Assembly (NCBI GenBank): GCA_900095095.1
Contig: FMBT01000372.1
Span: 122,036-186,035 of the forward strand
Origin: Fragilariopsis cylindrus CCMP1102
Lineage: Eukaryota; Bacillariophyta; Bacillariophyceae; Bacillariales; Bacillariaceae
Length of the DNA: 64,000 bases
Direction: 5' to 3'
Positions 50,690 to 63,900 of the stretch are shown here, piece by piece. The position numbers and the translations under genes were made by a program. Every line of letters starts with the position of its first letter. Within the stretch, counting starts at the first letter, position 1. The notes under the pieces were generated by a model. The model saw nothing but the letters and a program-made list of their open reading frames with translations, made no database searches and was not told the origin of the DNA.

Positions 50690-52000
50690 ATGCCTCCTAA
50701 AAGACGCCCAATCAGTGTCGAATGGGCCAAATCATTAGTAGGACTGTCTATGAAGGTCCCTGATTACTGGTGGGATGGTTGCAAAGGCTATAGGCTACAT
50801 GATGGTGTTATTGATTCATATTGTCCTATCAGTCAAAGATGGAATTTATTATTAGATACTAAAGAAGATGATGCTCTCTACCTCATGGCATATGATGCTA
50901 TCTATAAGTATGCAGACTTCAATTCCTCCACCTACAATGAATTCCAACTAACCCAACACCCTATTCGAGATGGTGATGATGAAATAGAAACAGAAACAAA
51001 AAAATATTATAGAACAGAGCCAGACGAATGGGATGAGGTTGTTATTGAAGATGATGGAGATGATAGGGGTGGACGTCCAATCGAGCCGCTTGAATGGGAA
51101 GGAGATGAAGAGTTCACTGTTAACATAACTGATGAAGAGGTGGAGATGTTAAGGGATGAAAGGGGTGAGATCAGGTTTGAGAAGGTGTTTCAATGGTGTT
51201 GTCCTAAGTTTGGTGATGATAATGATCAAACTCTATATGAATTCCAGGCTGCTAGGATGAGAAATTATATGAGGAAAAGGGTCCTTGAAAATGGTTACAA
51301 GCCAAGGTATTACAAAGGAGATAAAGTAATAACTGGAGATCATGTGGCTCGATTCTATGGAGCTTGTTTATGTAGAATGATCCATGGAGGTCGATCGATT
51401 GATCAGATATTTTCAAGAAGAGAGATAATGGATGCTGTTCCATCGATTAGAGAGGCAATGACTAAAGCTTGTTTGGAGGATCTTACTACATGCTTGCACT
51501 ACAGTGACGATTGGGATCCAGAGTGTGGTAGTGATTGGGATGACATATATGATGATCCAAAAGTTGTTGCAGCAACAGGCACTGCAAAGCATCGATTGAA
51601 ACATGGTCTATTGGAAGATGGGTATAATAAGGTATGTACTGTATATGTTGTTGTTGTTGTTGTTGTTGTTTCGAATCGCTTACTAACACATACCTTCCTT
51701 CTTCTTCTTCTTCTTACAAGCGATGGCAAGCTATTGTCAAATTTGGCAAGTGGATCACCACTGATGAGAGTCGAGTTGGGGGCTGGTATCATAGTTGCAT
51801 GACAATTGGACCTGAACCAAAACCAATTCGAACTGGAGCTACTATTCATACTGTCTGTATCACTACAGGTCCTCTCAGTACATTCAAGTTGTTTGCTAGA
51901 GTCTATGGTGGTCAATTCGATGAAGATATTCCAGAGATCAATGATTATGGAAAATACAAGATGATCTCTCTCTATGACCTTATGCTTGATCCATTCAAGC

Positions 52001-52005
52001 ATAAG
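52001..52005. repeat. Target-site duplication ATAAG (partner at 58199-58203)
   Basis: ATAAG directly abuts both LTR outer ends. Five bases is the usual duplication length for Ty1/copia integrases. Confidence 0.93.
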
Positions 52006-52257
52006 TGTTGAGCTACGATATAGCGTATACTTTGGTTATTAACTAATGTCTAAAGTTATTATGAGCTATCTATCTTAGCATCGATCGGGGTTGCTATTGC
52101 ACATCTTTCTCCACTTGCGATCTGTTGTAGTAAGTGGTTTAGGTTTGAACTGATATAGTTGGCCCGGTGGCAACTGACTTGCTGGGCTGTTGTATTTGAA
52201 TCCTTACTAGTAACGGGTTTGCGCGCCCCACTTGCTAGTGACTTGAGGATCTCATCA
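52006..52257 (-). repeat. 3' LTR of the CoDi element (also encodes the pol C-terminus)
   Basis: 252 bp direct copy of the 5' LTR at an offset of exactly 5941 bp. The pol frame enters it and stops at 52059, so 199 bp of the LTR are coding. A short purine-rich tract (GCAAGGGTG on the minus strand) adjoins it, a likely polypurine tract. Confidence 0.93.
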
Positions 52258-55200
52258 CACCCTTGCAGTGTAGCTGGGCTTTTGCCTTCTTCATAAAGAT
52301 ATATTGGACGCAGTGCTCTGTGTACTGATGTTGGTTGTACTTTCGATTGGTAGTCTGCTAGATTTATTTCTCCTGGCGCCCAGAATACTTTGAGTTGTTT
52401 CTTTTCTACCCTGTCTTGTACCCAGTAAAATCTCATGTCCATTGATTTTGATGCTTTCTGTTTAACTGTTTTGTTCATTATCCCATCTGCTGTGCTGTTG
52501 TCTGTTCGCATTGGTGTTGGTGGCTGTGGATGTTTTAATTCTTCTAATGTTGTCCTCATTGGCATTACTTCTTTTGCATTCATGTACAGGGCACCACATT
52601 CTGCCTCTGCTGCTGATTGCATGACTGCTTTTATTACTTTTGCTAGGATGAAAACTGCTCCATTGAACAGTAATCCATCCATGTCTCCTAGATAGTGGTA
52701 TCCTGATGCTCTGCTTCTTGATTTTGGTGCTACTTGGTAGGCTGCATCACTGTCAACTGTTAATATCATATCACTTGCTCTGTAGATGATCTCTGCTTCA
52801 GGGTGAGTGGCACAGTAATTCAGGAAGTATTCTAGTGCATCTTGCGTCTCTTGTGTTCCTTTTGTTGCTGCAATACAGAGTTCATTCAGTGTATGATGCA
52901 TGGTTCCATCAATTGCTCGACATGTATATAGGAATGTCCCACACACTTTCTGTATTGTTTGTATTTGCTTTGGTGATAGTTTTTCTGATATGTCTTGTCT
53001 TTCATACTGTATTTTTTGTCCAAATTCTGGTTGATGGAACTTGGCTGGTGCATCAAACGGTTTGGTTGGTCTCTGGTGTTGAAATTCTTTCAGTGCTTTG
53101 ATCACATAACCTTTCATTGATAATATTACCTCTCCTTTTTCATAATTCCAAGCTAAATCTATTCCAATATATTTGGATCCAGTCCAATCCACTTTTACTG
53201 GATAACTTGCTTTGATTGCATTGATTAAGTGATCTGCATCGTCTTTGCTGAAGTATTGTACTCCAAAGTCATCTACTACTAGTGTGAATGTAGTCTTTCT
53301 TGTTTCGTGTTCCCATAAGCCTGGAGTTCTTTTCACTGGGTGGTATCCGTATGGCGCTAGGTTCTTGATTAGGTCTTGGTTTGCTAGATATCCTGATTGT
53401 GCTAGCCCATATATTGCACCTGTTATCTCCATGTAGACGTATCCATTTTCATCAGTGTAGGCTTCAGTATTATATTCTTGTTTGATTTCATCAGGGATTA
53501 GATCTTTGTGAATTCTCATGTACTCTGGTGATAGTAACTTTGTGTTCAAGTACATATTTCCAATATCAATGCAAAGGTATTTTGCTCCTAGTCTTGCTCT
53601 TGAGATGGTGCTGTTTAGGTGAATCTTGATTGTTTCTAATCCTGCAGTATCGGTGCTTGTCTTGCCTTCATAATCATCCAACCTATCTCCACCGGCTGTC
53701 ATTCGTGTCCTATGGATTTCAGCTTTTTGTAATCTTATTTCACTGACAAACCGGGCGTACGTGATCTTTTTGTTCTTGGGGATGTCTTTCTTGTGAATCA
53801 AGTGCATTGTATCAGTGCCTTCTATCCTATCTTCTTTCTTCCTTGTCTTGCCTACTCCTTGCATTGTTCTTCCAAATTCATTTGCTCCAGATAATTGCCA
53901 CTGTTTCCTAATTTCAGGATCTGGATGATTGATTAGGTGCCTGTATTCTAACATCTTTTTTGTTACTTCATCGAATACAGGCATTGCATGGTGTAGTGGT
54001 AGGTTTGAATCGGTGAACGCGTTGAATGCCATCTTCATTGCTTCTCTTTTTGTCTTGTGGATTGCAGTTTTTGCTTTTAATCTTGATCTCGTTAGTCGGT
54101 GTAGTTGGTCCATGGCTGTATCGGCTGTGATAATATACTTTTCCACTGTCTTGTGTCGTAGTTCCTCTGAATCACCATCTTCATACTCTATCATGTAGTA
54201 CTGCCGATCACTGTCGTATGATGAGATGACTCCATTTAGATTATTCTTTTTGAATGATTTTCTAACTGTAGTACCAACAGGATGTGGTAATATTTCTTCT
54301 GCAATTCGCGATAATTTAGTCCTTAATGCGCTGGGTCCTTCACGATTTGGTTGAAATCGCGATGATTTAGCTTTTATTCCACTGGACCGTTCACTATTTC
54401 GGACTGATTTAGTGGCTAATCGGTTTCGCAGCCTCTCCATTGCAGTTGATGGTCTATCGGCCACCCTTGGAAGGTGATTACAGTTATTGTTGTTGTTGTT
54501 GTTGTTTACATCCACCCTTGGAGCTGCTACAGCAGTTTCTAACACCCTTGGAATTGGTGCAGCCAGTGCTGTTTCCATTCTAGTTGGTGGTGTAAATATT
54601 TTCCGTAATTGCTCCATTGCATCATTTACGACTGTGCCTTGTTGTAGAAATGGAGTCGCTGGGTGTGGTGCTTGTAGTATTTCAGCCAGATCTTCTGTGA
54701 CTCTTGCTAATCGATCCGATGTTGCTGTTGTTGGCATATCTACTTTTTCTGGAAAGAATTCAATTGTATTTGTTGTACGAATTCCTCCTGTATCAGGAAT
54801 ATAACTGATGTAGTTTCGATAGTGTTTCATTGCCGGCCCTATGTAGTAACCGACTACTCCATGGCACGCCCAAGCACCTCTCTCCAGTGCTCTTTCATGT
54901 ACCACTACTTTGCATCCAGGTGGAGCTAGTGGTGTCTTGTTGAAATCAAAGTTTCCCCATACCTGTTGATAGGCAGATAATTTTGGGTTGATTCTGGAAG
55001 GTCTGCACATATTCAATGTCATTACTGCTTGTTTGATGATTCGATCCCATTGCTTTGCTGGGAATGTACTGTCACATCCATATAGCACTGCAATGAAGTG
55101 GTTTTTGAATGTCTGGATTGCTCTTTCTGCATGGTTCAATCTATGATCACCTGGGGATGCTATTTGGTAGTCTAATCCTTTCTTTTCTATTTCCAATATC

Positions 55201-56318
55201 AATTCTTTTGAGGTCTCATTGTCTAATCGATGTAGGACTGGGTTGATTCCAGCTTTCTTCAGATCTTCAAATAATTCGTTGTAACCTTTGACTAATGATG
55301 CTGTTTTTCTGTTTTTGATTGCTACTGCATTGATGGTGTTTGAATCATAATCATACATCACAAGGACATAAGCATTGCCTTGGGCTGAAGTCGTTGGAAA
55401 TCTTCCAGGGAGATCTGTTGCTATTATTCCTTTCAAATTTTCAAATGGTATTGTATCCACTGCCACAGTATGCTGTCTGTTGGTGATGCGTATGGGTGGT
55501 GGTAACACTGGTTCTGGATCTAATTCTTCATTCATTATTTCACTGATTGTTGGCTTTGTGGTGGACCTAATTCCTTTTCTAATCATGTGCAGATGGCCCA
55601 TTGTTGTTGATATTGATTTTGGTAGGTGTCTCCTCACTGCTGCGCTAGTTAATCCTGGAAATGATGTTAACCAATCATTGTCAATGGCATTGCATAGTGT
55701 TTTGACTGGTAGTGATCCAATAGTTGCATTGTGGTATGCCATTAATTTTGCTATTGTTGGTTGATGATATGCACTGTTTGCTGCATGGAGTGCTGGTGCT
55801 GATGGTAGATTATCCTTCAATAGATTCGCTTTCTTTCTGTGTTTGATTGGTATCATCCATAAGGTGGAGGTTTTATCTTTAATTCCTTTCAGTATTATCT
55901 TATCATTTTTCTTAACCACGATATTGTCTTCTGTTAATTCAATTTTGCATCCATCATCAGCTAGTACTGGCAAAGATAGTAGTGGTGTGTCCATCTCGTT
56001 GAAGTGATATGCTGTTTTGGCTTCTTCTGACACTGCTGGGATATCTAATTTTGTTGTTGCGACTGAAGTCATGGTTTGATTATTAGCACAAATCACTTTT
56101 ATTTTGTCGTGGATGTTCTCTTTGTTGTCATCATTTGGCAGAAAGTGACCAGTTGCTCCGGAGTCGGCTGCAGTATTGATGTATTGCACATCTTCTAGGA
56201 TTGCTGCTAGTGCTGTATATTTATTAGTTCGCGAAGAATGACAGTATGAAATTGGGTTAATAGGTTTATTATTTTTATTTTGTGCTATTTCATTTATACT
56301 GTCATTCTTCCAACTCCA
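52059..56318 (-). CDS. CoDi Pol polyprotein (protease, integrase, reverse transcriptase, RNase H)
   Basis: The frame continues directly from gag after the UGA. The protease site ADSGATGHF is near 56160. The integrase follows: VYHNATIGSLPVK-like N-terminal region, then IATDLPGRFPTTSAQGNAYVLVMYDYDS with the first Asp, RLDNETSKELI with the second, and NHAERAIQTFKNHF with the Glu. The RT centre is TLVVDDFGVQYFSKDDADHL near 53270; VDDFG replaces the more usual VDDM or YADD of other copia elements. RNase H shows ILTVDSDAAYQVAPKSRSRASGY. The last 65 residues are encoded in the 3' LTR. Pol lacks its own ATG upstream of the protease, so it depends on gag translation. No stop or frameshift over 1,400 codons. 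Confidence 0.93.
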   Translation of the reverse strand, partial: WSWKNDSINEIAQNKNNKPINPISYCHSSRTNKYTALAAILEDVQYINTAADSGATGHFLPNDDNKENIHDKIKVICANNQTMTSVATTKLDIPAVSEEAKTAYHFNEMDTPLLSLPVLADDGCKIELTEDNIVVKKNDKIILKGIKDKTSTLWMIPIKHRKKANLLKDNLPSAPALHAANSAYHQPTIAKLMAYHNATIGSLPVKTLCNAIDNDWLTSFPGLTSAAVRRHLPKSISTTMGHLHMIRKGIRSTTKPTISEIMNEELDPEPVLPPPIRITNRQHTVAVDTIPFENLKGIIATDLPGRFPTTSAQGNAYVLVMYDYDSNTINAVAIKNRKTASLVKGYNELFEDLKKAGINPVLHRLDNETSKELILEIEKKGLDYQIASPGDHRLNHAERAIQTFKNHFIAVLYGCDSTFPAKQWDRIIKQAVMTLNMCRPSRINPKLSAYQQVWGNFDFNKTPLAPPGCKVVVHERALERGAWACHGVVGYYIGPAMKHYRNYISYIPDTGGIRTTNTIEFFPEKVDMPTTATSDRLARVTEDLAEILQAPHPATPFLQQGTVVNDAMEQLRKIFTPPTRMETALAAPIPRVLETAVAAPRVDVNNNNNNNNCNHLPRVADRPSTAMERLRNRLATKSVRNSERSSGIKAKSSRFQPNREGPSALRTKLSRIAEEILPHPVGTTVRKSFKKNNLNGVISSYDSDRQYYMIEYEDGDSEELRHKTVEKYIITADTAMDQLHRLTRSRLKAKTAIHKTKREAMKMAFNAFTDSNLPLHHAMPVFDEVTKKMLEYRHLINHPDPEIRKQWQLSGANEFGRTMQGVGKTRKKEDRIEGTDTMHLIHKKDIPKNKKITYARFVSEIRLQKAEIHRTRMTAGGDRLDDYEGKTSTDTAGLETIKIHLNSTISRARLGAKYLCIDIGNMYLNTKLLSPEYMRIHKDLIPDEIKQEYNTEAYTDENGYVYMEITGAIYGLAQSGYLANQDLIKNLAPYGYHPVKRTPGLWEHETRKTTFTLVVDDFGVQYFSKDDADHLINAIKASYPVKVDWTGSKYIGIDLAWNYEKGEVILSMKGYVIKALKEFQHQRPTKPFDAPAKFHQPEFGQKIQYERQDISEKLSPKQIQTIQKVCGTFLYTCRAIDGTMHHTLNELCIAATKGTQETQDALEYFLNYCATHPEAEIIYRASDMILTVDSDAAYQVAPKSRSRASGYHYLGDMDGLLFNGAVFILAKVIKAVMQSAAEAECGALYMNAKEVMPMRTTLEELKHPQPPTPMRTDNSTADGIMNKTVKQKASKSMDMRFYWVQDRVEKKQLKVFWAPGEINLADYQSKVQPTSVHRALRPIYLYEEGKSPATLQGCDEILKSLASGARKPVTSKDSNTTAQQVSCHRANYISSNLNHLLQQIASGERCAIATPIDAKIDSS

Positions 56319-56321
56319 TCA
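56233..56321 (-). promoter_or_regulatory. Putative gag-pol stop-codon readthrough signal (UGA plus stem-loop)
   Basis: On the element's RNA strand: UGA (56321-56319), an 8-nt spacer UGGAGUUG (56318-56311), then a perfect 15-bp stem with left arm GAAGAATGACAGTAT (56310-56296) and right arm ATACTGTCATTCTTC (56247-56233), enclosing an A-rich 48-nt loop. Gag and pol are in the same frame around the UGA. A stable structure 8 nt after a gag stop is the arrangement known from gammaretroviral readthrough. The stem and frame are seen directly; the function is inferred. Confidence 0.7.
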
Positions 56322-57563
56322 CAAGTTGGATCTTAAATGCAAGTTACGGGTAGATCCCCCCATGGTGTTGGTTGCTGTTGCTTCCTTTTTGTGGGCTGCT
56401 TCATCCTTGATGTACTTGCATGTCATGCTGTTGTGTTTGATATCGAAACCACAAGTCCAACAATATTCATCATTATCCCAACGTCGGCATGTTCTAGTGC
56501 CGTCCTTGTTGTTTCTTTGGAAGCCATTGCTTCCTAGCGCGCGGTAGCCTCCGCCTCCTCCGCCTCCACTCTTGTTGCTCTCAAGTAGATTGAGACGCTC
56601 AGTTAACACTTTGATTTGATTCAATCGGTCGTCTGCAGTTGCTTGTGGTGGTGGTTGTTGTTTCGATGCCATAAGGGCTGTGTAGTTTTTCTCTAGCGTA
56701 ACCATCCGCGCATTTGCTTCAAAGGATGCTTGGGCGAGTACTTCCTGATTTTCCTTGTTTCGGTCGATTTGGTGCTTCACTGCATTGGCAATGCCGATTG
56801 CTTTGAGTGTACCAGTATCCTTCTTGTTGTCACTGATTGCCTTCGTGAAGTGAGTTTTGAATCGTTTCCACGTCTTTTCTGCTCGACTGAGGAGTTTCCA
56901 TGATCTGACGTCTAGTTTTAAATCAATGTGCTCTTTGAATTGGTTGAGTCCATGTCGGATGAGGGTCTCATCGTCCACAGTTTGATTTAATGAATCAAGC
57001 GCATTCCTTGCATCTTGTAATGTCTTGTAGTACACCTGTGGTGCTTCATTCGGATCATATTCTTGTTCAAGTACCTTGTGTAAGGCTGTGACTTGGTCCG
57101 CGACGTCCTCTGGCTGGACATATTGGTCCATGAGGTGATCGAAAAGTTCGATTGCAGTATACCCGACAATATCTCCATTATCATCCTGGAGTTCCAGGAA
57201 ATGATAGTCTTTGAAAGCATGCATGATCATTTTCTTTGTTGCTGCTTGTGCTAACTTGTATCGGCGCCATGCCGTATTAGCTGTCTTGTGGATCTCTAGT
57301 AATTGGTGTGTGTTGCCACCGTATACTCCAGGATTGGTTGGTGGTATGATTTGGGAGGAAACTCCTTTCTTTTTCAGCCAGTCACTGCTGCTCCATACAA
57401 TGTATGAATGTCCATGATCTTGTGTCTGCGGATCAGCACATACTCTTGTTTGTAACTGTCTACTAATCTCTCTTTTTGCTTGAGTGATGCTGATTAGCGT
57501 TGGTTGACTGTCGTTACGAGTAATGTCGGTTAGATCGATTGTCTCATCTATTTCTGTTGCCAT
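56319..57563 (-). CDS. CoDi Gag
   Basis: 414 residues from ATG at 57563 to a UGA at 56319-56321. The body is helical and charged, as in capsid proteins (YHFLELQDDNGDIVGYTAIELFDHLMDQYV, LNQFKEHIDLKLDVRSWKLLS). A poly-Gly stretch near 340 precedes a zinc-knuckle-like motif, CWTCGFDIKHNSMTCKY, which would bind the RNA genome. The same frame continues past the stop into pol without interruption, so Gag and Gag-Pol would be made at a ratio set by reading through the UGA. Confidence 0.9.
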   Translation of the reverse strand: MATEIDETIDLTDITRNDSQPTLISITQAKREISRQLQTRVCADPQTQDHGHSYIVWSSSDWLKKKGVSSQIIPPTNPGVYGGNTHQLLEIHKTANTAWRRYKLAQAATKKMIMHAFKDYHFLELQDDNGDIVGYTAIELFDHLMDQYVQPEDVADQVTALHKVLEQEYDPNEAPQVYYKTLQDARNALDSLNQTVDDETLIRHGLNQFKEHIDLKLDVRSWKLLSRAEKTWKRFKTHFTKAISDNKKDTGTLKAIGIANAVKHQIDRNKENQEVLAQASFEANARMVTLEKNYTALMASKQQPPPQATADDRLNQIKVLTERLNLLESNKSGGGGGGGYRALGSNGFQRNNKDGTRTCRRWDNDEYCWTCGFDIKHNSMTCKYIKDEAAHKKEATATNTMGGSTRNLHLRSNL

Positions 57564-57946
57564 TGTTGTCGTTGATTTTTGTCTTATCTGTTTTCTGTTT
57601 TCCGGATGGAGCTGTTGATATTGTGATGGAAGCTTTTTCTTTGTTGCTTACGTCACTTGAATTGCTTGTCGTTGTTGTTAAGTCTTGTGCTTGGCTTGTT
57701 ATTAGGCTATTTCTAAGTTAATTGCTTTCGACGTCACTTGAGGTGCAGTGTTGTTCTGTATGTTTTCTTGTGTGTTTGTCTTCACAATATGAGCTGGTGT
57801 TAATGATTTTATCTGTTTCTTTTTACGGTATGTTGTTAACTTACGGTGATTTTGGCTGTTTGCCTACCGTGTTGTCTTTGTCTTGTTTAATGTCTCTTGT
57901 TGTTGCTGTCTCTTGTTGTTGCTTAAGCGACAATATAACTTTAGAC
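57564..57946 (-). other. CoDi 5' leader between LTR and gag
   Basis: About 380 bp, GT-rich on the plus strand. The primer-binding site should start right after the LTR at 57946; the sequence there (GTCTAAAGTTATATTGTCGC on the minus strand) is not the usual initiator-Met complement TGGTATCAGAG, so the primer is unknown to me. Confidence 0.55.
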
Positions 57947-58198
57947 TGTTGAGCTACGATATAGCGTATACTTTGGTTATTAACTAATGTCTAAAGTTAT
58001 TATGAGCTATCTATCTTAGCATCGATCGGGGTTGCTATTGCACATCTTTCTCCACTTGCGATCTGTTGTAGTAAGTGGTTTAGGTTTGAACTGATATAGT
58101 TGGCCCGGTGGCAACTGACTTGCTGGGCTGTTGTATTTGAATCCTTACTAGTAACGGGTTTGCGCGCCCCACTTGCTAGTGACTTGAGGATCTCATCA
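57947..58198 (-). repeat. 5' LTR of the CoDi element
   Basis: 252 bp, apparently identical by eye to the other LTR. On the minus strand it starts TGATGAGATCC and ends CTCAACA. It supplies the promoter for the element. Confidence 0.93.
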
Positions 58199-59349
58199 AT
58201 AAGGGTCATTGTGTTGTCATGGATTCTGCTTACATGAGTGATGCCATGTGTCAAGTCGGAAGAGAAGAATGGAAAATCAACATGGTTGGTACTTGTCAAA
58301 CCAATCGAACTGGTGCTGGTAGTCTTGGTAAGGCAACTGTGGCTGCAAGAGGGATCAAGGTTGGAACACATCAATCAGTTATGTATCAACACAAGGACAA
58401 GCCCATTACCTATGCTATTTGGGCTGATAACAACTATGTCAAGACGCTTTCTAACTTTCATGGTCCTAATCTTCTAAGAGGAGGAATTCAGAGAAAGCTG
58501 AGGGATCCAGTAACACACAGGAGGAACAAGGACTTCACTGATGTTGATTGCCCTGAGCAACAATGGGTGTACTGTCAAACATATCATTTGATTGATAAAG
58601 GGAATGGAAGTGAAGCTAAGTATGATCTCTCTACTGAATCGCATCTGCATGGTTGGTCGCCCAAGTTAGCATCTAGGTTTTTCAATATGAATCTTAACAA
58701 TGCATACAACATCTACAAGTGGCTCTACAACAAGTATCATCCTGACAGGACGCCAATGGATATGAGACCATGTATCAACGATTTGACTCATTCACTACTG
58801 CAACAAGGATCAGAAATTCGAACAAGAGGCTTTGGAGATGCACCAAGTGCTACAAAGGATATTACTACTACCTCATCTTCTTTGGATGGAAGAAAGATTC
58901 GATCTGATGCAGTTAGACAACCATTCACCTCCCCTACTGCAACAGTTACTGGTACACCTCAAACGCCAGCTTCTGCTATTACTGCAAGGGCGCTCCGTTA
59001 TCGACAATCTGATTTTAATCGTCAAAAGGAAATGCAGCCTGGAAGGAATCATCTATCAGTTCCACTGATTGTGCTAGATAAGAAGCTCTCTTATTGCAAG
59101 TACATCAAATGCCCTGGTTTCAATACTGGAGCAAAGAGAGCAAGAGCGTATCCATCAAAGTATGTATGTGAGCAGTGTTCTATGGAGAAGGGATCCGATT
59201 TTTGGCTATGTAATTCAATCAAAATAGTGGATGGAGTGAAGACAGTGGTTAATTGTCATGCAGCATACCATGTGGAAAAGAAATTATATGAGATAACAGC
59301 ACCAAGTAGTGTTAGTGTTAGTACTATTGTATCCGAACTAACAGAGTAG

Positions 59350-60918: not shown

Positions 60919-63900
60919 ATGAGCCAGCAAGAAGAACAAGAGGATACTAACGAAACACTACCTACTGAAGGAAGTGATAACGATAGTAGATCCACTTATT
61001 CCGAAGCAACAAGTGGAAACCAAGCGCCCGAAGCGTTAGGTGAAGGAACTCGTAGTCCCCCTTTTTGGGCAGACGCTAACCATCGGACTGAACTAACCTC
61101 TCTAGGTTATAACTTTCACACACCGAACCCGCGCAGAACTACTCGTTCAAGAGCTCCGACTATTAGATATACACCATCTGGTGATACTAATCAAGAGGAA
61201 GCCGATATAGAAAATAATCTTTTAAATATCCAGGTAGAAGTAAACACAGCTAGAGAAGAAGACGAAAGCACAGCAAGCGCTTATAGCGGCTTACGCCCCG
61301 GCGATCCACTCTACGTCTCTCCGCCTAGACTACCTCTACCAGATAGTTCAAGTACAGATACATCTAGTGTTCCGGAACGTCCCAGTCCACCTGAACCTAT
61401 TGAAGAAGTCATTGATACGTCTTTTACGCTCGGAACATTTCCAACAGTACACGATCCTTACGTAAAAGGTTACGAAATTACTGCCAGAAATCCAGTTCCT
61501 ATTAACGTACCTCTACCTTCTCTTCCAGAGACTCCACCTTTACCTTCTCTTCCAGAGTTACCGTTAACAGAACGCCTTGATACATTGCTAACCGAGATCT
61601 GCAATTTCAGAGTACGTAACTTAACAACTCGACGTGCATTTGCTACTAACATTACGCCTAGTAATACTAGCTCACCCAAGATGGCGACCACTCCTTTCGA
61701 TGCGCAACTCGAAGTCCTCTTGGTGAATATGTTGAAATGTACGACGGCAACAAATCCGATATACCTTGTGTTAGATCAGAACCACATCCACACATTTGAA
61801 CAATTTCGTTCTATTGAAATTGATGATTTGCCAACGTTTAAATACGAAAAGCCAACCACTGTAGGCACCGAAGAAACTCTCCATATAACACCACTCAAGG
61901 AAGTACAAAACTGTGTACACTTTTGTTGTTATCTAGAGACCGCTGCTGCCGTTGCTCTTGCTGGTGGAGTCATCGATTGTGACGATCCGTCTACATGGAT
62001 TATGCGGATATGTTAAACTGGAAACGTGCAATAACTGGTAAAGCTACATATCTTCGAACGTTAGTTATACCGGTAACGACTACAACAGGTGCTCCTGGAT
62101 CACCAACTATGATAGTTTCAGGCCCTATCACTTTAAAAGATGATGAAGCCGCACTTATCAGTTGGAATCGAAAGCCTCGAGATCCTGTAAAATACCCGAC
62201 CATCAACAACGATGCTTTCTATCAAGATTGGAAACTAAATTTTAAGAGACAAATTATCCAAGATACATTGGAAAGAGTATTGGATCCTAATTTCAATCCC
62301 GATCTTCGATCATCAACATGCTCAGTACGTAGTGGACCCGATGCAGAACTAGCAAGACTTCAAGTTAATTACTTCGCTCAAATCTTGTGTGTAGTTCTTA
62401 AGAACCCCGAAGGTCTAGGTCTTCTTATGGTCCGTCCAGACGATCCGTTATATGTATGGAGAAATCACGAAGATCATCAGAATGACTCAGATGCAGCTCA
62501 GATAGCTACAACCACACTGATGAAGAAATTAATTGCATTGAAATTCAGCGATTTCAACACAAGACATGAATTTCTTACTTCATTTCAAGATACCTCCAGA
62601 CGGTACGATCAACTAGCTACTAACGTCATGGATGATTCGGTAAAGATAACATTATTGCAAGCAGCAGTCATGGCCGATTCCGCGTTAATTAACTCCTGGC
62701 AATCATGTCAAGATAGTAAACGAGGAAGCGCTTTAGCTGGATCATCTAGACCTGTTACGTATTATGAGTACATCACGTTTCTTATCAAATCAGCCAAGAA
62801 TCATGATCTATATACGCCATACAAGAAACCATCCCGTCAAGCTCATCAAGCTACATCAGAATCATTTTACAATGAAGAAATGAATGTAGACTATGGCGAC
62901 ACTGACGATGGCATTGACGAGTTCTTAGCTCATATGTCCGTATCCAACGAACCTATGACCGAACACGCTGAAAGTACAATGCAAGCCTATGCAGCATTCC
63001 AGAAGAACCGTCGTCCTCCTCGTGAGAGAGACCCTGACACTGAAATACCGAAACCAATCTTCGAAAAGTGTCCAAGAGATTTACGGATTGCATGGAGTAA
63101 GGCACCCAATGATATTAAGAAACAGATTCTTAAAATCAAAAACCATCCCACTAAGCAAGGTGCTAAGAAAAATAGTGAGTTAGGTGTCTACATTAGCGAT
63201 TTTGAAGGATATGACTCCGACGCATCCGGCCAATCAGAGCATACCTACGTATACGACGCTGATGATGCTGACGATACATCTGTCATAGAAGCAACTGATT
63301 TGACGGCAAATGCAGCAAGACGAAGACAGCCCAATCAAGGTATACTCAAGAAGAAGGAATTACCAAGGAAGACTGAGCTGCCTTTAGCCGATCCACGTCG
63401 ATTCATGGCCAACAAAACCACACCAGTAATAGGTAAAGATGGTAAAGTTGTTGGTCATATCGCATATACGGCAGCTATGGCTAAAATCAATCATCGTTTT
63501 GATCAAGTCGATTGTCATCTACCAAATACTTCCAAAGACAACTACGTCGTCTCCGTTAATGCAACGAAATTCTTTAATGAACCACTCGCATTAATGGATG
63601 GCGGAGCTAATGGTGGAATTGGAGGCAGAGATATGAGACTCATGTCTTACAATGCTGACGGACGACGTGTCAATATAGGTATTGCAGGTGATCATCAAAT
63701 GACTGGCAAGAGACTTGGAACATTTGTTCTGTAATTGTTACAAACAGAGGCAAGATTCTAGCCATATTTCATCAATATGCTCATGTACCTGAACAAGAAA
63801 AATCGATTCACTCGAAATGTCAGTTCCAAGCGCATAATAATCTCGTTGGAGATACAGCGACAGCCTATGGCGGGCCACAACGTATTCAAACTGCAGACGG

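Follow-up and report, generated by a model that had tools for sequence, protein, structure and literature searches.

A predicted UGA readthrough signal with a compensated helix at the gag-pol junction of Ty1/copia retrotransposons in the diatom Fragilariopsis cylindrus

Introduction

In murine leukaemia virus (MuLV), Gag-Pol is made by readthrough of an in-frame stop codon, which is followed by an 8-nt spacer and a structured RNA (PMC2194720). Readthrough was also proposed for Tca2 (pCal), a Ty1/copia element of Candida albicans, in which gag and pol share one frame and are separated by a UGA with an 8-nt spacer and structured RNA behind it (PMC2194720). Among the Ty3/gypsy elements of fission yeasts, Tosmo1-3, Tcry1 and Tj1 conserve a UGA that separates gag from an in-frame pol, and readthrough was proposed there as well (PMC10085805). 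The CoDi elements, which are diatom Ty1/copia elements with long terminal repeats (LTRs), mostly have one or no stop codon or frameshift between the two genes (PMC2806351). Here we analyse a 64,000-nt stretch of the diatom Fragilariopsis cylindrus CCMP1102 (contig FMBT01000372.1, positions 122,036 to 186,035; hereafter the window). It carries, on the minus strand, a Ty1/copia-type LTR retrotransposon with a single UGA between gag and pol, and we compared this junction with its relatives in the same genome and elsewhere.

The nearest studied case is Tca2. In both elements one frame runs through gag and pol and is split by a UGA, with an 8-nt spacer and a downstream structure. In Tca2 that structure is a predicted pseudoknot. 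In the diatom elements it is a long-range helix that closes an AU-rich loop; a pseudoknot could not be detected, and five lineages share the arrangement. With MuLV the diatom element shares the in-frame stop, the 8-nt spacer, the downstream structure and, as a prediction, the Gag-Pol product. MuLV, however, combines UAG with a pseudoknot, and the diatom element UGA with an irregular helix. The in-frame UGA between gag and pol is also common to Tosmo1-3, Tcry1 and Tj1, yet these elements conserve its immediate context (GAA before, CT after), while the diatom elements conserve the helix and vary the next codon. The CoDi elements resemble ours in being diatom Ty1/copia elements with LTRs; the part of their account drawn on here does not give the identity of the stop, a structure or a mechanism. 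In the best-ranked part of larger sets of literature results, neither UGA readthrough nor such a structure was reported for diatom elements. The kind of signal is therefore already known from MuLV and Tca2; what appears to be new is how deeply it is conserved, its restriction to UGA and its use of a plain helix.

Judged from the sequence, UGA readthrough, on a signal that includes the helix, is very probably how Pol is made in these elements. The predicted signal, a UGA followed by a helix from the ninth base on, has been kept in five deeply diverged copia lineages of this diatom.

The gag-pol junction in the window

The original prediction described a gag that ends in a UGA, with pol continuing in the identical frame, and this is what the window holds: the open residues downstream contain no in-frame TGA (Table 1). 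It further described a stem of 15 perfect base pairs that begins 8 nt past the stop and closes a 48-nt loop. The two arms are indeed exact reverse complements, GAAGAATGACAGTAT pairing with ATACTGTCATTCTTC. Such a stem was thought unlikely to arise by chance, and the fold of the window junction agrees (z = -5.1; 0/200 dinucleotide shuffles equal it), as does the comparison along the 2.1-kb locus, where none of 1876 other positions matches its strength at the same geometry. No pol-frame ATG precedes the protease, since the first in-frame Met is residue 83 and the DSGA motif stands at residue 52. The uninterrupted series of 15 Watson-Crick pairs is unique to the window copy among 43 distinct junctions; the others include G.U pairs or mismatches.

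Copies and lineages in the genome

Relatives were collected from the genome with a junction query (28 matches) and a query from the N-terminus of pol (133 matches). In total, 80 distinct places were fetched, 76 of them with a pol match, and junctions were located by walking the open pol frame upstream to the first stop. Leaving out loci with <140 open upstream codons and repeats of identical junctions gave the set of 43 distinct junctions. Stop-codon identity was read from the DNA of this genome; relatives elsewhere were compared via their protein ends.

Where 140 or more upstream codons were open, the first stop was UGA in all 46 places; lowering the limit to 60 codons made this 47/47, and UAA and UAG did not occur. 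Intact copies thus retain a stop that separates gag from an in-frame pol, and the places outside these 46 are truncated or decayed. In the aligned stop column of the 28 junction matches, read by eye, TGA stands 25 times, TAA once, TAG once and neither once, and the three without TGA are decayed copies. The upstream frame is gag, as the window Gag was matched in 42/43 distinct junctions (blastp, E<=1e-3), with identities of 20-33% in seven rows from other lineages.

Copies with the UGA fall into five lineages, with mutual identities of 23-45% in early pol. Lineage 1 is the family of the window element, lineage 2 comprises the loci L055/L057/L064, lineage 3 L067/L076/L078 (76-83% identical among themselves), lineage 4 L075 and lineage 5 L080. 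Frames of at least 2000 aa with an RVT_2 match, nine among the 150 matches listed in this genome, are taken to be single-ORF (open reading frame) gag-pol elements of other copia groups.

Two features of the gag ends were seen along the way. A motif resembling H-x3-A-T-x2-N-x-M-G-G precedes the stop in L055, L067, L075, L076, L078 and L080, in a variant form in L075 (by eye). A zinc-knuckle pattern was detected in the gag frames of just 21/43 junctions.

Spacer and covarying helix

Counted from the UGA without any alignment, all 43 distinct junctions have U at +6 and G at both +8 and +9, while +5 is G in 42/43 and +12 is G in 41/43. The G at +9 opens the 5' arm, and the 8-nt spacer is therefore kept throughout. 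The 3' arm, by contrast, can end anywhere between +77 and +152, which indicates that the loop can vary in length while the 5' arm keeps its place relative to the UGA.

Within this register the letters of the arms have been largely exchanged. For example, L067 pairs GAAGGTGATGGATAT with ATATCTATCCCCTTC, and L078 pairs GAGGGAGAAAGATAT with TTATTTCTCTCCCTC. For the analysis of covariation, 37 of the 43 junctions were aligned (36 distinct; L069, L072, L073, L074, L086 and L092 were omitted as near-repeats). Double-sided changes were found in 13 of the 15 pairs. Standard pairs filled 84.6% of the stem cells of the 36 distinct rows, vs 71.5% after shuffling and 39-49% when the arms were slid, and the covariation score of 0.392 (0.202 shuffled) was reached by none of 500 shuffles. 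The alignment was not unusual in its number of further pair types (282/500).

Exchanging arms among representatives points the same way. The cognate arms of six representatives, two of which (L067 and L078) come from one lineage, were the best of 720 arrangements, with 72/90 pairs vs a mean of 55 and an energy of -83.0 vs a mean of -45.4 kcal/mol. When the 3' anchor could be chosen freely, L009 (15 vs <=9 pairs) and L080 (10 vs <=6) clearly preferred their own 3' partners, and L067 did so narrowly (14 vs 12). Without any anchor, the strongest duplex joined +9 to the same 3' base in 34/43 junctions. As a stand-alone stem, the helix is outstanding in L009, L013, L020, L067, L076 and L078 (rank 0-8 of 1876-2776 positions). 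Compensatory change hence backs a structured RNA downstream of the UGA, weakly so in the L075 lineage.

The pattern is also specific. A genome-wide search for a UGA, a G-rich start of the 5' arm and the 3' motif gave 34 + 17 matches and 0 + 0 in the reversed control. Of these 51 matches, 49 adjoin a copia pol or junction match. The two exceptions, G000:C254:29216-29303 and G000:C635:195865-195952, have no adjacent copia pol match and represent either chance or an unknown element.

The original prediction had named the alignment of related copies as its check. Within this genome the UGA is kept in every intact copy and the arms change with compensation; neither a majority of sense codons at the stop nor arms that vary overall without compensation, the outcomes that would have spoken against it, was found. 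One suggestion did not hold, namely that the loop might pair elsewhere as a pseudoknot: pairing between loop and downstream sequence was no better than in shuffles in 10/11 representatives (L009, z -1.9). Single folds made an outer extension of the helix across +1 to +8 seem plausible; its cognate arms, however, ranked only 390/720, and it is not claimed. Rfam gave matches only below the gathering score.

The 3' arm (about 56222-56247, minus strand) also encodes a serine-rich peptide, Ser-Ser/Pro-Ser-Arg/Ser, in several lineages (by eye). Part of the sequence conservation of this arm may therefore stem from the protein.

Relatives beyond the genome

Protein searches returned 69 relatives of Gag, 35 of which carry the C-terminal motif. 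In 34 of these 35 the protein ends 0-4 residues from the motif. P0121 and P0127 are named F. cylindrus and the remaining ones are ENA or JGI entries; P0121 (FRACYDRAFT_240270) is 100% identical to L040 and L041 over 418 aa. Relatives of Pol numbered 570, and the 120 listed are at most 1507 aa long, none long enough for a Gag-Pol, even though the search would admit lengths up to about 2485 aa. Scans of viral_contigs gave no relative. The scan of genome_contigs gave two contigs: L107, with a match limited to pol residues 759-1308, and L108, with no gag match and no open frame extending back to a junction.

These results suggest, with somewhat better than even confidence on our side, a diatom copia clade spread in ocean plankton that inherited one recoding module. 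In this module the UGA would be followed by a spacer of exactly 8 nt, invariant at its core, and then by a long-range helix that encloses an AU-rich loop and does without a pseudoknot. The module would drive readthrough, its register being kept while most pairs were rewritten. Among Ty1/copia elements it would be the first readthrough signal that depends on a structure and is deeply conserved.

Production of Pol

Under the readthrough model, most ribosomes would terminate at the UGA and yield Gag. The helix may hinder ribosomes in the act of terminating and thereby allow a near-cognate tRNA to compete with the release factor. A minority of ribosomes would then decode the UGA as an amino acid and continue from Gag into Pol, and Gag would be in excess over Gag-Pol. 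The original prediction that UGA readthrough sets the Gag to Gag-Pol ratio is supported in its signal by the UGA-only rule (46/46) and the compensated arms, from which we infer the readthrough itself.

The linker between the UGA and pol shows a third-position bias in lineage 2 (21/21/35) and in lineages 3 and 5 together (16/14/29), as expected if the linker is translated. The codon following the UGA takes nine forms (TGG, TGT, AGT, AGA, CAA, CGA, GGA, AAT and AGC). In lineage 1 the linker is mostly helix and A-rich loop. Two arguments from the linker were dropped. Its length is a multiple of three in 39/39 cases, which follows largely from finding junctions by an open-frame walk, and the count of linker stops, 0 in frame vs 229 and 391 in the other frames, is largely a product of the same procedure.

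The linker also bears on an explanation by splicing, in which an intron over the UGA is removed from some transcripts and leaves one gag-pol frame in the style of Drosophila copia. That element is described as using regulated splicing (PMC2194720), and many of our copies have a GT near the stop, which overlaps the UGA in 7/10 lineage-1 junctions. Within the 30 nt before the UGA, to which this inspection was confined, no GT is common to all lineages, and six of the 43 junctions (L017, L026, L075, L078, L080 and L105) have none. Moreover, splicing does not require a helix in fixed register with the UGA, and the bias in the linkers of lineages 2 and 3 and 5, absent in lineage 1, fits translation. 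We therefore regard splicing as improbable.

Alternatively, Pol could be produced independently of Gag, through reinitiation, internal ribosome entry or transcription from an internal promoter, the UGA being an ordinary terminator. The Tca2 junction indeed showed promoter activity, and not readthrough, in yeast (PMC2194720), and an in-frame ATG lies in the linker of 18/43 junctions. None of these 18 is from lineage 1, whose ten junctions all lack it, and 25/43 junctions are without one altogether. In the window, a Pol started at its first Met would lack the protease site, since the motif lies upstream of it. An ordinary terminator also leaves unexplained why UGA alone is used and a helix in fixed register follows in all 46 places. 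Separate production of Pol thus has little probability.

Codon-proximal selenocysteine elements exist in selenoprotein genes, and an exclusive UGA with a structure right downstream could recall them. Decoding as selenocysteine, with the helix as such an element, is nevertheless very improbable, because the codons flanking the UGA vary widely and 51900-58300 has no match to an Rfam selenocysteine-insertion family at E<=1. That the stem of the window copy is an inverted repeat formed by chance, or a small inverted-repeat element that inserted there, would account for its uniquely perfect pairing. This reading is refuted, with practically no likelihood left, because other lineages hold a helix whose letters differ and whose register is the same.

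Evidence against readthrough

A number of results weigh against UGA readthrough directed by the helix. By energy, the stem at the UGA is ordinary in L055 (rank 259/3549), L057 (815/3558), L075 (582/2576) and L080 (343/3376), and hence not exceptional in three of the five lineages. Fold z-scores ranged from -6.1 to -1.2 across the junctions tested, and reached just -1.6 in L057, -1.3 in L067 and -1.2 in L075. The anchor-free duplex missed the proposed partner in 9/43 junctions (L057, L058, L059, L062, L063, L075, L082, L087 and L090). With free choice of the anchor, L075 lost with its own partner (9 pairs) to two foreign ones (11), and L055 and L078 were each tied. The search for the 3' anchor required a C before G[A/C/T]G and gave 1-3 candidates per junction; the C that partners +9 is therefore partly set by construction. 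Pair +22 is an A-C mismatch in 5/10 lineage-1 junctions, and the linker of this lineage has no third-position bias (20/15/15). Beyond the genome, the environmental Gag relative P0182, the sole exception among the 35 with the motif, carries Trp in place of the stop and extends 31 residues further. Finally, the junction of Tca2 alone gave no readthrough in Saccharomyces cerevisiae (PMC2194720). Energy as the only test of the stem was rejected, as it fails in lineages 2, 4 and L080.

Significance for retroelements and annotation

To our knowledge, the way in which retroelements other than retroviruses bypass the stop of gag is poorly known. In the elements described here, the UGA, the spacer and the pairing were kept in five deep lineages while much of the helix sequence changed, so that evolution in effect did the mutagenesis. 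The variants of the lineages provide natural variants and mismatched-arm controls for a reporter test. The conservation suggests that a plain helix can serve in place of a pseudoknot. Furthermore, gag and pol gene models of diatoms that are split at a UGA probably form one coding unit, which calls for caution by annotators.

The element and its surroundings

The retrotransposon spans 52006-58198 on the minus strand and is flanked on both outer sides by the 5-bp target duplication ATAAG. Read on the plus strand, the LTR at 52006..52257 starts with TGTTG and finishes with ATCA. The window element thus has the TG...CA ends and the target duplication of a Ty1/copia LTR element. The complete identity of its two LTRs implies that this UGA-bearing element inserted or moved recently.

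Table 1. Coordinates of the retrotransposon and its gag-pol junction in the window
Feature	Position	Strand	Remarks
UGA stop codon, predicted readthrough site	56319..56321	-	ends gag
8-nt spacer, UGA to helix	56311..56318	-	
Helix 5' arm, first base G(+9)	56296..56310	-	
AU-rich loop, 48 nt, weaker inner pairs	56248..56295	-	
Helix 3' arm, then GCG	56233..56247	-	
gag ORF	56319..57563	-	414 aa, last codon UGA
pol frame	52059..56318	-	gag frame continued, 1419 residues up to TAA; DSGA at residue 52
3' LTR	52006..52257	-	direct repeat, 252 nt, 100% identical to 57947-58198
5' LTR	57947..58198	-	252 nt; ATAAG duplication on outer flanks

Close to the end of the window Gag lies a zinc-knuckle-like C-x2-C-x5-H-x4-C (read by eye). 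In Pol, residues 803-1037 match RVT_2 (E=1.9e-4, 21.6 bits, under the curated cut-off of 31.6 bits). PF07727 is present in many of the Pol relatives from the protein search. The integrase gave no Pfam match in the window Pol, and its position is inferred.

A Tudor-type domain, PF21743 (PTM/DIR17-like, E=6.7e-12), was found upstream of the reverse transcriptase, at pol residues 639-683 (54141-54275, minus strand), and is shared with many Pol relatives from the protein search. Speculatively, it could steer integration by reading histone marks.

Further along the window, 60919-63734 on the plus strand holds two long ORFs which resemble part of another retroelement. The second has a protease-like motif, DGGAN, close to its end (by eye), and no Pfam match to these ORFs passed the cut-off. 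Just past the 5' LTR starts a transposase-like ORF (58219-59349, plus strand) that matches PF13843 (DDE_Tnp_1_7) at E=2e-4, slightly under the cut-off. The copia element therefore appears to adjoin, or sit inside, a DNA transposon.
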